Source: Paludibacter sp.
GTDB lineage: Bacteria > Bacteroidota > Bacteroidia > Bacteroidales > Paludibacteraceae
NCBI GenBank assembly: GCA_028710895.1
Contig: JAQTTH010000004.1
Location: forward strand, 124,001 to 188,000
DNA: 64,000 nucleotides
Direction: 5' to 3'
The position numbers and the translations under genes are program-made. This document shows positions 12,409 through 39,029 of this stretch, one piece after another (position 1 is the first letter of the stretch; each line of letters starts with the position of its first letter). The notes under the pieces were generated by a model. That model was given only the letters and a program-made list of their open reading frames with translations. It was not told the DNA's origin and made no database searches.

Positions 12409-13524
12409 ATGAGATACGGTTTTATTTTTGTTGCGTTAGCAATATTCATTTCATTCAATGCATATGTAATAACCCGCGGATGGCAAGCATTGCCTTCCGC
12501 TTCTGCGTTACGCCCCATATACATGGTTTCACTCATAGCCCTTTTTCTAATGATGCTGGGCACCATGATTTTCGGAAATGCTTTACCTCAGCCTGTTGCA
12601 AAGGTGGTTAGTTTTGTTGGGTTTACTTATTTCATTCTTGTTGTGTACTTATTAATATCCTTTCTGTTGGTAGATGGGGTACGTATTGCCAATTATTTTA
12701 TTCATTTCGCACCTGCAGGAATGCAAATTTTCCGCTTGTGGGCCATGGTTGGTACATTGGGAATAATAAGCATAGCACTGGTTTGGGGCAATTACCGATT
12801 TAATCATCCACAAATAGTAACACTCAATTTGAGCACCGATAAGCCGAAGCAAAACAAGACGTTGAAGATTGTTGCTGCAAGTGATATTCACCTCGGCATT
12901 TCTATCGATAAAAAAAAACTGCAGCGATACGTGCAGATGATAAATGATCAACATCCCGATATTGTGCTGCTTGCAGGTGATGTAAGCGATCGGTCTATTG
13001 TGCCTGTTATTCGTCAGAATATGGCTGAGGAGTTGCGGGCTATTAAAGCGCCTCTGGGTGTGTATGCTATCAATGGCAACCACGAGCTGTACGCCGAAAC
13101 ACCCAATGCCACTGCCGAATACCTGAAAACTGCCGGAATAAAAGTGTTGAGAGACGAAGTGAGTTTGGTGGATAGCAGCTTTTATGTGGTAGGTAGGGAC
13201 GACAGAACCAATACGCAACGTAAGAACTTGTCGGAATTAGTAACAGGAGTCGACAAAAACAAGATGATGATTTTGTTGGATCATCAGCCATACCATTTGC
13301 AAGATGCCGAGCAAAATAGTTTCGATTTGCAGATTTCAGGTCATACTCACAATGGGCAATTCTTCCCGGGCAATATAGCCGTGAAAAGAATGTATGAACT
13401 GGGATATGGCTATCTGAAAAAGGGCAAAACACATTATTACGTTTCCTCAGGCCTTGGCATTTGGGGACCACAATACCGCATTGGTACACAATCGGAACTG
13501 GTGGTGATAAATTTGAAATACTAA
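12409..13524 (+). CDS. Membrane-anchored metallophosphoesterase
   Basis: A 371-residue protein. About four hydrophobic segments occupy residues 1-125 (near 4-22, 36-57, 64-90 and 108-127). A calcineurin-type phosphoesterase domain follows from about 150. Metal-ligand motifs are DIHLG (D159, H161), GDVSD (D191), GNHE (N224, H225) and GHTHNGQ near 310. The arrangement resembles the YkuE/YaeI-like group that faces one side of the inner membrane; the substrate cannot be read from sequence. It is a single gene between its own promoter and a strong hairpin (13524-13664). Confidence 0.9.
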   Translation: MRYGFIFVALAIFISFNAYVITRGWQALPSASALRPIYMVSLIALFLMMLGTMIFGNALPQPVAKVVSFVGFTYFILVVYLLISFLLVDGVRIANYFIHFAPAGMQIFRLWAMVGTLGIISIALVWGNYRFNHPQIVTLNLSTDKPKQNKTLKIVAASDIHLGISIDKKKLQRYVQMINDQHPDIVLLAGDVSDRSIVPVIRQNMAEELRAIKAPLGVYAINGNHELYAETPNATAEYLKTAGIKVLRDEVSLVDSSFYVVGRDDRTNTQRKNLSELVTGVDKNKMMILLDHQPYHLQDAEQNSFDLQISGHTHNGQFFPGNIAVKRMYELGYGYLKKGKTHYYVSSGLGIWGPQYRIGTQSELVVINLKY

Positions 13525-13664
13525 TGTGATGATGTGTTGATGTGATAATAAGAGTCAGTAAACTCATCGTTATTTAAAAGATAATGTGCCAACAAAAGAA
13601 TTTTCTTTTCTTTTATTGGCACATTATCAAATCAACACATTATCACATCAGCAAATCATCACAT
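13524..13664. repeat. Nested double palindrome between convergent genes
   Basis: The outer arms 13524-13549 and 13639-13664 are reverse complements over 26 bases with 2 mismatches, built from gatgtg/cacatc words. An inner hairpin pairs 13581-13600 with 13608-13627 (20-bp stem, one mismatch, 7-base loop). The left arm starts on the last base of the phosphoesterase stop and the right arm ends 2 bases before the tadA stop. The inner hairpin probably acts as a bidirectional terminator. The outer words look like a dispersed intergenic repeat. Confidence 0.75.
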
Positions 13665-13666
13665 CA

Positions 13667-14140
13667 TTATCTCTTTCTTTTAAAAAACTCCTTCACCAAT
13701 TTGCTGCACTCGTCTTCCAACACGCCCGAAACAACTTCTGTTTTGGGATGAAGAGCCAGCGGGGCAAAACGGGCAAAGCCACGTTTCTCGTCAGCTGCTC
13801 CGTACACGATCCTGCTTATTTGCGACCATCCCAAAGCACCTGCACACATTACGCAGGGTTCCACCGTTACATAAAGCGTGCAATCGGTCAGGTATTTTCC
13901 ACCAAGGAACTGTGCTGCGGCTGTTATGGCCTGCATTTCGGCATGAGCTGTAACATCAGTTAGCGTTTCCGTGAGGTTATGACCACGGGCAATTATTCGC
14001 CCCTGACATGTAATTACTGCCCCGATAGGCACTTCATCCCGTTCACCGGCTCGTTGGGCTTCCTGCAAGGCTTGTTTCATGAAATATACGTCGGGATTAA
14101 GCTCTTTGGAGTCGTTTTCGGAGTAATAGGATATGGACAT
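13667..14140 (-). CDS. tadA: tRNA adenosine(34) deaminase (TadA-type)
   Basis: Deaminates wobble adenosine to inosine in tRNA-Arg. The 157-residue protein has the zinc-deaminase motifs HAE (H66, E68) and PCVMC (C96, C99). TadA features are DEVPIGAV near residue 35 and GHNLTETLTDVTAHAE. The downstream GWSQISRIVYGAADEKRG also fits TadA better than guanine deaminase. The ATG at 14140 is preferred, although M21 could also serve. The six-copy hairpin repeat at 14193-14420 forms its upstream region. Confidence 0.9.
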   Translation of the reverse strand: MSISYYSENDSKELNPDVYFMKQALQEAQRAGERDEVPIGAVITCQGRIIARGHNLTETLTDVTAHAEMQAITAAAQFLGGKYLTDCTLYVTVEPCVMCAGALGWSQISRIVYGAADEKRGFARFAPLALHPKTEVVSGVLEDECSKLVKEFFKRKR

Positions 14141-17020: not shown

Positions 17021-17169
17021 AATTAATTCATAATTCATAATGCACAATTCATACCTTATGAATTATAACATTGGAGAAGTATTGATAAAATAATTATTGA
17101 TTACACACAAAAATACAAAGACTCTGATAATTTCCAATTATGCATTGTGAATTATGCATTATCAATTAT
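17021..17169. repeat. Inverted word-repeat pair bounding the parE/EnvC spacer
   Basis: Left copy 17021-17052 (aattcataattcataatgcac words) and right copy 17136-17169 (its reverse-complement words) enclose the spacer that holds the parE promoter. The right copy overlaps the stop codon of the EnvC-like gene. The words match the copy after hemE at 6131-6166. Pairing is imperfect. Confidence 0.5.
17108..17115 (-). promoter_or_regulatory. -7 element for parE
   Basis: On the - strand this reads TATTTTTG (TAnnTTTG), about 93 bases upstream of the parE ATG. No clear -33 element was found. Confidence 0.4.
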
Positions 17170-38260: not shown

Positions 38261-38284
38261 TATTCAACCACAATATGTATTTTT

Positions 38285-38869
38285 AACCACATAGTAACTC
38301 ATAGTTACATAGTGTCACTTAGTTGTTATAAGTGAACATAGAACATATAGTTTTTGAAAGTATTATTGAAATGCAATGAATGAAAAAATCACACAACAAT
38401 ACATTGACCATTTAGTACATGAAATCATTGGTTGTGCTATTGAAATTCATAAAGAGCTTGGACCTGGATTGTTGGAAAGTGCATATGAAAAATGTATGAT
38501 ATTTCTGCTTGGAAAAAAAGGATTTAAGGTCGAATCGCAATTGGAAGTTCCAATAATTTTTCATGAATTATTAATTGACAGAGGTTTTCGTTTAGACTTA
38601 TTGGTCGAAAATTTGGTGATTGTTGAACTTAAGGCAGTAAAAGAGCTTACTCAGGTAAACAAACAACAAATCCTTACTCATTTGAAACTTTTGAAAAAAC
38701 CGAAAGGTATATTGATCAATTTTCATTGTTCAAATATTTTTTATGAAGGGCAACAAACATTTGTCACGAATGAATACGCTAAACTTCCTTTCAAATGACA
38801 CTATGTGTTTTTCTATGTATTCGAATTTTTTCTATGTGACACTATGTAACTATGAGTTTCTATGTGGTT
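38285..38869. mobile_element. Inverted-repeat-bounded GxxExxY unit (585 bp)
   Basis: Terminal arms 38285-38318 and 38836-38869 are reverse complements over 34 bases with a single mismatch; the outer ends read aaccacatag. Inside is one ORF (38376-38798). A second copy of the tgacactatgt word overlaps the ORF stop (38796-38806) and repeats in the right arm (38837-38847). The unit interrupts the spacing between a regulator and its probable partner gene. No transposase is present and no obvious target-site duplication was seen. Mobility is an inference from the structure. Confidence 0.6.
38376..38798 (+). CDS. GxxExxY-family protein, PD-(D/E)XK nuclease-like
   Basis: A 140-residue protein of the GxxExxY family (PDDEXK_3 group). 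The name motif is GLLESAY (G31, E34, Y37) within IHKELGPGLLESAYEKC. A nuclease-like core is suggested by D74 in FRLDLLVEN and E84-x-K86 in IVELKAVKE, with Q98 in a following helix. Biochemical function is not established for the family. Coding sequence is AT-rich. It is enclosed by the 34-bp inverted repeats described at 38285-38869, and its stop codon lies inside one of the repeat words. Confidence 0.88.
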   Translation: MNEKITQQYIDHLVHEIIGCAIEIHKELGPGLLESAYEKCMIFLLGKKGFKVESQLEVPIIFHELLIDRGFRLDLLVENLVIVELKAVKELTQVNKQQILTHLKLLKKPKGILINFHCSNIFYEGQQTFVTNEYAKLPFK

Positions 38870-39029
38870 GATATGTTTTTTTGAAAATAATATATTGGAA
38901 ACCTGACTGATTTTATCCCACAATTTGAGTTTTTATCCCAAATAAGCAGATTTTAATCCCTGTTTATTGCCGAACGTAATCTTTTGATATTTCTTTGCAA
39001 CCTCAAATAAATGCTTTAAAGAATTGCTT

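Follow-up and report, generated by a model that had tools for sequence, protein, structure and literature searches.

The GxxExxY gene between a cupin gene and an AMP-ligase gene in Paludibacter sp. is enclosed by a pair of long inverted repeats. This arrangement raises the question of whether arms and gene form a single mobile unit and, if so, what moves it. The locus was analyzed within a 64,000-nucleotide stretch of contig JAQTTH010000004.1 (the window), and was compared with other genomes of the genus and with GxxExxY loci from several phyla.

The arms and gene of the window element

The original prediction placed 34-bp arms at 38285-38318 and 38836-38869 with a single gene between them. 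Both arms were confirmed, and each reaches a length of 38 nt, with 95% complementarity between them (left arm, 38285-38322 on the + strand; right arm, the left arm inverted, 38832-38869 on the − strand), forming the strongest inverted repeat in the window at spacings of ≤1.5 kb. They enclose one gene alone, at 38376-38798 (+ strand), which encodes 140 amino acids. In a comparison of flanks, this gene scored 32, against a maximum of 13 for the 56 other window ORFs of at least 150 amino acids. The left arm consists of four degenerate 8- to 10-bp units, AACCACATAG-TAACTCATAG-TTACATAG-TGTCACTTAG, and matches the left half of the hairpin that genome G010 carries, without a gene, at this locus. Two weaker units, GAACATAG and AACATATAG, could be read inward of it at 38331-38350 (+ strand), and repeat units carry on inward of both arms. 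As had been predicted, the stop codon sits within a third copy of the arm word tgacactatgt (38796-38806, − strand), located by sequence and repeat analysis. The four-unit make-up of the arms, the extra inward units and the gene-less hairpins with related arms found elsewhere in the same genome had gone unseen. The stretch missing from the orthologous empty site of G007 and G017 spans 38261-38909, that is, the arms plus edges of 24 and 40 bp, which sets the outer bounds of the insertion.

The same genome carries a second GxxExxY gene (G000:C5:191880-192224; L009), which has ACGAATT-type repeats and adjoins ABC-transporter-like genes. Two gene-less palindromes also lie in the window. The first, at 13515-13673, has degenerate CACATCA-type units (arms 13515-13549 and 13639-13673) and encloses a second hairpin at 13580-13628. 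The second, at 17024-17161, has TTCATAAT-type units, and the same class occurs at galK-galM in this genome.

The GxxExxY protein

The window protein matched PF13366 (E value, 7e−36; 123.5 bits against a cutoff of 22) and TIGR04256 (E value, 1.5e−37; 128.5 bits against a curated cutoff of 35). Residues D74, E84, and K86 had been correctly named as those of a PD-(D/E)XK site (codons within 38595-38633, + strand), to which E34, the E of GxxExxY (38475-38477, + strand), should be added; all four are intact. Across 161 aligned GxxExxY sequences, E34, D74, and E84 were present in 161 and K86 in 160, and dN/dS among related copies was 0.01 to 0.24. From these alignments, the catalytic site of this widespread family is under strong purifying selection.

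An AlphaFold2 model of the protein (pLDDT, 94.8) showed a PD-(D/E)XK fold, and the predicted fold class is clear. The nearest solved structures were the Cas4-like nuclease 4ic1 (Z score, 8.9) and the Holliday-junction resolvase Hjc 1gef (Z score, 6.7), with restriction enzymes (EcoRV) and lambda-type exonucleases as further neighbors. Foldseek returned no match to the model at an E value of ≤0.001, so the likeness to Cas4 or Hjc assigns no function, and none of the solved structures searched was near enough to fix a substrate. Among the open-access papers found, none gave a function for GxxExxY.

It had also been claimed that the element lacks a transposase. Profile searches of its sole gene, a nuclease family member, gave PF13366 alone, apart from a subthreshold Cas4 match, and no Y1/HUH transposase (PF01797) was detected. 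A phage or plasmid origin was considered and rejected, as relatives were found in 0 of 50,697 phage records and in just 8 of 72,556 plasmids.

Association of inverted arms with GxxExxY genes

At a single locus, an inverted repeat could be an accident or a fixed local feature, and only when this locus is viewed alone does that explanation have anything in its favor. To place it in context, 350 bp upstream of each gene was compared with the reverse complement of the downstream flank, using cutoffs of ≥14 and ≥20. At least one GxxExxY gene was identified in 39 of 48 genomes of the genus, with up to 17 matches per genome. Of the 89 genus genes, 65% scored ≥14 and 34% scored ≥20, compared with 3.6% and 1.7%, respectively, when flanks from different loci were mispaired. 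None of the 56 other window ORFs reached 14, and matching arms were found at 0 of 30 ParE toxin genes of the genus, which are likewise small accessory genes. The same proportion (65% at ≥14) was obtained for 74 loci gathered across phyla by scanning named genomes, a set biased to the LGPGLLES clade by the narrow alignment with which it was collected, the wide alignment being too diverse; controls gave 4.1% for mispaired flanks and 1.2% for 161 other ORFs of the same loci. These loci included ones from Bacteroidota, Planctomycetota, Verrucomicrobiota, Chloroflexota, Acidobacteriota, Balneolota, a zetaproteobacterium, and a Methanosarcinales archaeon. GxxExxY genes elsewhere were thus usually armed, each with its own unit sequence, and detectable arms were missing at about one third.

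The mispaired-flank, other-ORF, and ParE controls led us to reject chance. Together with the association in the genus and across phyla, and with the TGTCWGAAYYNNRATT counts and the galK-galM swap described below, they make an accident of the locus extremely improbable. No open-access paper found links GxxExxY to repeats, and subscription work on this may exist.

GxxExxY genes mostly lay between two genes of their own direction (73 of 80 in the genus and 50 of 66 across phyla), compared with 25 of 44 ordinary ORF triplets of the window. This bias fits promoterless genes inside operons or a transcript-linked process.

Arm units diverge with the nuclease

Self-similarity of 62 strong arms from many loci peaked at a shift of 9, followed by 8 and 10. 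The units themselves varied widely by locus and included CACATAG, CACTAAG, CACAAAAG, CGCAGAG, CACGAATT, ACAGAATT, TATGATT, and CGCGGATTTACGCTGAT. Despite this divergence between clades, the two arms of any one element matched. Arm similarity tracked protein identity across 103 elements (Spearman coefficient, 0.30), a value reached in none of 500 label permutations (standard deviation, 0.034), and the correlation persisted among pairs less than 60% identical. When placed on the protein tree, arm types clustered visibly by eye. Arm sequence therefore diverges with the nuclease clade while paired arms stay matched.

Gene-less copies and derivatives

The original prediction proposed searching for the arms with and without the gene, and they recurred in both states. 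Short perfect hairpins of 54 to 60 bp (for example, AACCACATAGACACATAGAACACATAG-loop-CTATGTGTCTATGTGGTT) were intergenic in several species, and two ACATAG hairpins that were checked had folding z scores of −8.5 and −9.3 relative to shuffled DNA. The terminal pattern TGTCWGAAYYNNRATT was found at 200 sites in the genus and its reversed control at 28. For the one clade tested, its median count per genome was 8 where the matching nuclease clade was present and 1 elsewhere (P = 8e−5). The window's own genome carries 18 TGTCTGAA-type sites without a matching gene, and some other genomes are likewise rich in them. Many single TGTCTGAA ends had no clear partner, so decay or half-copies are common.

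In G013:C237, two copies of ∼170 bp lie beside a full copy and contain the 5′ leader fused to the last codons of GxxExxY; a third copy of this type was identified in G013:C69. As read from these junctions, the short copies represent internal-deletion derivatives that kept the same ends.

In G035, TGTCTGAA-type arms were found in frame inside a DNA methylase gene and between the halves of HsdS (L300 445-772 in G035:C60; L101 716-821 in G035:C90). The idea that a whole hairpin had inserted cleanly and in frame into the methylase gene was not borne out, as the arms sit either side of native sequence.

Arms and gene move as a unit

For several copies at different loci or in different genomes, similarity was confined to arm-gene-arm. 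Examples were L066, L115, L128, L145, and L146, with ends TGTCTGAATCAGAATT...AATTCTGATTCAGACA, and L122, L123, and L124. Neighboring genes also varied between copies. The clearest exchange was seen between galK and galM in the near-identical genomes G023 and G026, where the flanks on both sides are mostly 92 to 100% identical and the elements differ: a CACAAAAG element in one genome is replaced in the other by one of CATATAAG type, with nucleases just 62% identical, and identity stops exactly at the outer arm ends (TTTTTAACCA and TGGTTTAAAAA). At this same gap, G011 carries a perfect gene-less hairpin and G005 a gene-bearing one of the same type.

Comparison of orthologous cupin/AMP-ligase loci, as had been suggested, revealed a clean empty site in G007 and G017, in which the cupin TAG is followed directly by A(T)TTTATCCC. 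The hairpin of the window is present in this gap in G010 without a gene, its left half being identical at 39 of 46 positions. Other states were a CACTAAG hairpin in G040 and G044, a GCAAAG-type hairpin in G012, and, in G043, the start of a GxxExxY gene with CACATAG repeats at a contig end. The empty sites led us to reject a fixed local feature, and the arms are neither single in occurrence nor conserved at this locus in all relatives. The region upstream of gnd and the galK-galM gap showed the same mix of empty, gene-less, and gene-bearing states. Each of these three operon gaps has been reused by different palindrome families, as if they were insertion hot spots.

No obvious target-site duplication was seen at the inspected sites, where the genomes compared are different species and junctions are thus imprecise. 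A TTGAATA pair in L300 was considered as a possible duplication and set aside, as it was seen nowhere else. Some GxxExxY loci have been inherited in place, with whole flanks alike across species and arms partly decayed. Matching arms therefore indicate that a copy is recent, and the gene can persist longer than its arms.

The arms and the GxxExxY gene constitute one unit, given their occurrence at unrelated loci, the empty orthologous sites, the swap, and the gene-less and deletion derivatives. Recurrence and empty sites give good support to the compact mobile or structure-bound element that was originally proposed.

The gene-less states allow a variant of the reading that we favor (a mobile palindromic element built on a nuclease that recognizes its own arms), in which the gene-less palindromes came first as the units that spread, and the nuclease gene homes into the loops of palindromes that match it. 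The gene-less G010 hairpin at the site of the window, the pair of same-type hairpins in G011 and G005, and the galK-galM swap all speak for this order of events. Against it, the gene-less copies of G013 clearly arose by deletion of the gene, and a pure invader leaves the specificity of arms for each gene clade unexplained. We regard it as unlikely as a general account; invasion of palindromes by the gene and loss of the gene from full copies may both happen.

The same comparisons bear on a different proposal, that in the mRNA the arms pair into a hairpin between operon genes, which the protein binds or cuts to tune expression, with recurrence reflecting horizontal transfer of a useful module. 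Such a regulatory or RNA-processing role would suit the position of most copies within, and aligned with, codirectional gene pairs, the strong hairpin folding, the purifying selection on the protein, and the conservation of some loci across species. It accords poorly with neighbors that change from copy to copy, with the empty sites in relatives, with vertically inherited copies that keep the gene while the arms decay, and with deletion derivatives that multiply beside a full copy, and we consider it quite unlikely.

Other protein families in the same architecture

Two further families in genus genomes were found within inverted arms. DUF559 (PF04480) genes (L381 to L410), which we take to be PD-(D/E)XK-like, have C-rich arms of the CCCCTAACCCCTAAAGGGG class, and 81% of 21 scored ≥14 (mispaired control, 13%). 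The four-helix-bundle genes (TIGR02436; 23S intervening-sequence protein; L411 to L440), which have 8 matches in the window's own genome, carry arms such as ACAAGTTACGAGTTACAAG or CAAAGAACAAAGAGCAAAGA, and 77% of 30 scored ≥14 (mispaired control, 11%). The CCCCTAACCCCTAAAGGGG arm class also occurs without a gene between galK and galM in several species.

The four-helix bundle is not known to be a nuclease. That it shares the architecture means that catalysis may not be the common factor and that the moving enzyme could be elsewhere: either each protein has its own way of recognizing its arms, or another factor moves all three families. An unlinked enzyme could then move the palindromes, or errors of host replication could do so, through hairpin template switching or along an RNA-level route like that of 23S rRNA intervening sequences. 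Small genes such as those for GxxExxY, DUF559, and four-helix-bundle proteins would be cargo that aids persistence. An architecture common to three unrelated protein families speaks for such passengers, as do gene-less copies that last without a cognate gene, and the excess of same-direction neighbors (73/80 versus 25/44 window triplets) would fit a transcript-linked process. A common mover, however, would be expected to keep ends alike, and arm sequences are peculiar to each family and to each clade of GxxExxY; the strong purifying selection on the catalytic site also counts against mere cargo. We judge this account improbable. The four-helix bundle nevertheless weakens the case for a nuclease acting on the ends of its own element, and because of it we are just moderately confident that the nuclease is the mover.

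Comparison with known systems

The analogy with REP-associated transposases made in the original prediction proved an unusually good fit. In REP/RAYT systems (REP-associated tyrosine transposases; Nunvar et al. 2010, PMC2817692), the gene is flanked by inverted palindromic repeats that codiverge with the protein, gene-less copies are intergenic and in arrays, the 3′ ends of RAYT genes are caught between repeats, and repeats are more numerous with the cognate gene. GxxExxY is likewise flanked by inverted palindromic repeats codiverging with the protein, with dispersed gene-less repeats that are more numerous where the cognate gene is present (one clade tested) and with gene 3′ ends between repeats. 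In contrast to REP/RAYT, GxxExxY is a PD-(D/E)XK nuclease family and no Y1/HUH transposase is involved. Its arms are longer, composed of degenerate ∼9-bp units, and no GTAG-type head was found at the foot of the palindromes, where arms begin AACCAC..., TGTCTGAA..., or similar. RAYT genes are reported neither to occur in multiple copies nor to change location (PMC2817692), whereas GxxExxY copies move with the gene, as paralogous, tandem, and swapped copies. The GxxExxY element therefore resembles REP/RAYT in nearly every described respect but is not a member.

Rickettsia palindromic elements (Ogata et al. 2000, cited in PMC10969869) are not known to have a gene for their own mover. The GxxExxY-type palindromes are similarly intergenic. 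In G035, their arms can be read in frame within a DNA methylase and an HsdS gene, but those of the methylase flank native sequence; a further difference is that the GxxExxY element has a gene. Intervening sequences of 23S rRNA genes are cut from the RNA by RNase III and may carry an S23p/four-helix-bundle ORF (PMC4990558). They share with the GxxExxY element a stem-forming structure with one small ORF, and the four-helix-bundle genes of the genus lie in the same kind of arms. The GxxExxY element belongs to another protein family and lies outside rRNA, the window copy being between the cupin and AMP-ligase genes and not in a 23S rRNA gene.

With MITEs and insertion sequences, the element shares terminal inverted repeats, internal-deletion derivatives, and insertion polymorphism between relatives, but it has no transposase and no detected target-site duplication. 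Unlike MITEs, the shortest GxxExxY-type copies are almost wholly two arms.

The homing endonuclease I-Ssp6803I is an example of a PD-(D/E)XK nuclease whose host element is an intron. Both systems place a small nuclease in a selfish element and show a site that is occupied in some alleles and unoccupied in others, the G010 hairpin being an unoccupied yet recognizable allele at the site of the window. The host element of GxxExxY differs in being a palindrome rather than an intron, and it has many target sites.

A candidate mechanism and its meaning

On balance, we lean towards a large REP/RAYT-like family of mobile palindromic elements built on a PD-(D/E)XK nuclease that recognizes its own arms as the best reading. 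The element would consist of two inverted arms of degenerate ∼9-bp repeats, to which a full copy adds one GxxExxY gene. By analogy with REP/RAYT, the nuclease may act on its own arms, probably recognizing them as a hairpin or cruciform, a suggestion in keeping with its nearest folds (Cas4-like nucleases, Holliday-junction resolvases, and restriction enzymes). It could then cut or nick at the arms, after which host repair or replication might copy the element or shift gene and hairpin into another palindrome or an AT-rich intergenic site. In functional terms, this would be a REP/RAYT pair in which a PD-(D/E)XK nuclease replaces the HUH transposase.

More broadly, and with slightly more doubt than belief, we propose a class of mobile elements present across bacteria and in archaea, each a self-matching palindrome of degenerate ∼9-bp units with one small nontransposase protein that recognizes it. 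Such a class would have arisen at least three times, on GxxExxY nucleases, on DUF559 nucleases, and on four-helix-bundle proteins, would spread by a mechanism known for no transposon, and may account for many of the hairpin repeats between genes in these genomes. We know of no mover for the intergenic hairpin repeats of Bacteroidota and other phyla. The tie between GxxExxY and repeats offers a testable role for the family and a candidate origin for the repeats, and the matched nuclease-arm pairs over many clades provide a natural set from which a recognition code could be sought. If a PD-(D/E)XK nuclease does spread these palindromes, it would represent a new mode of DNA mobility.
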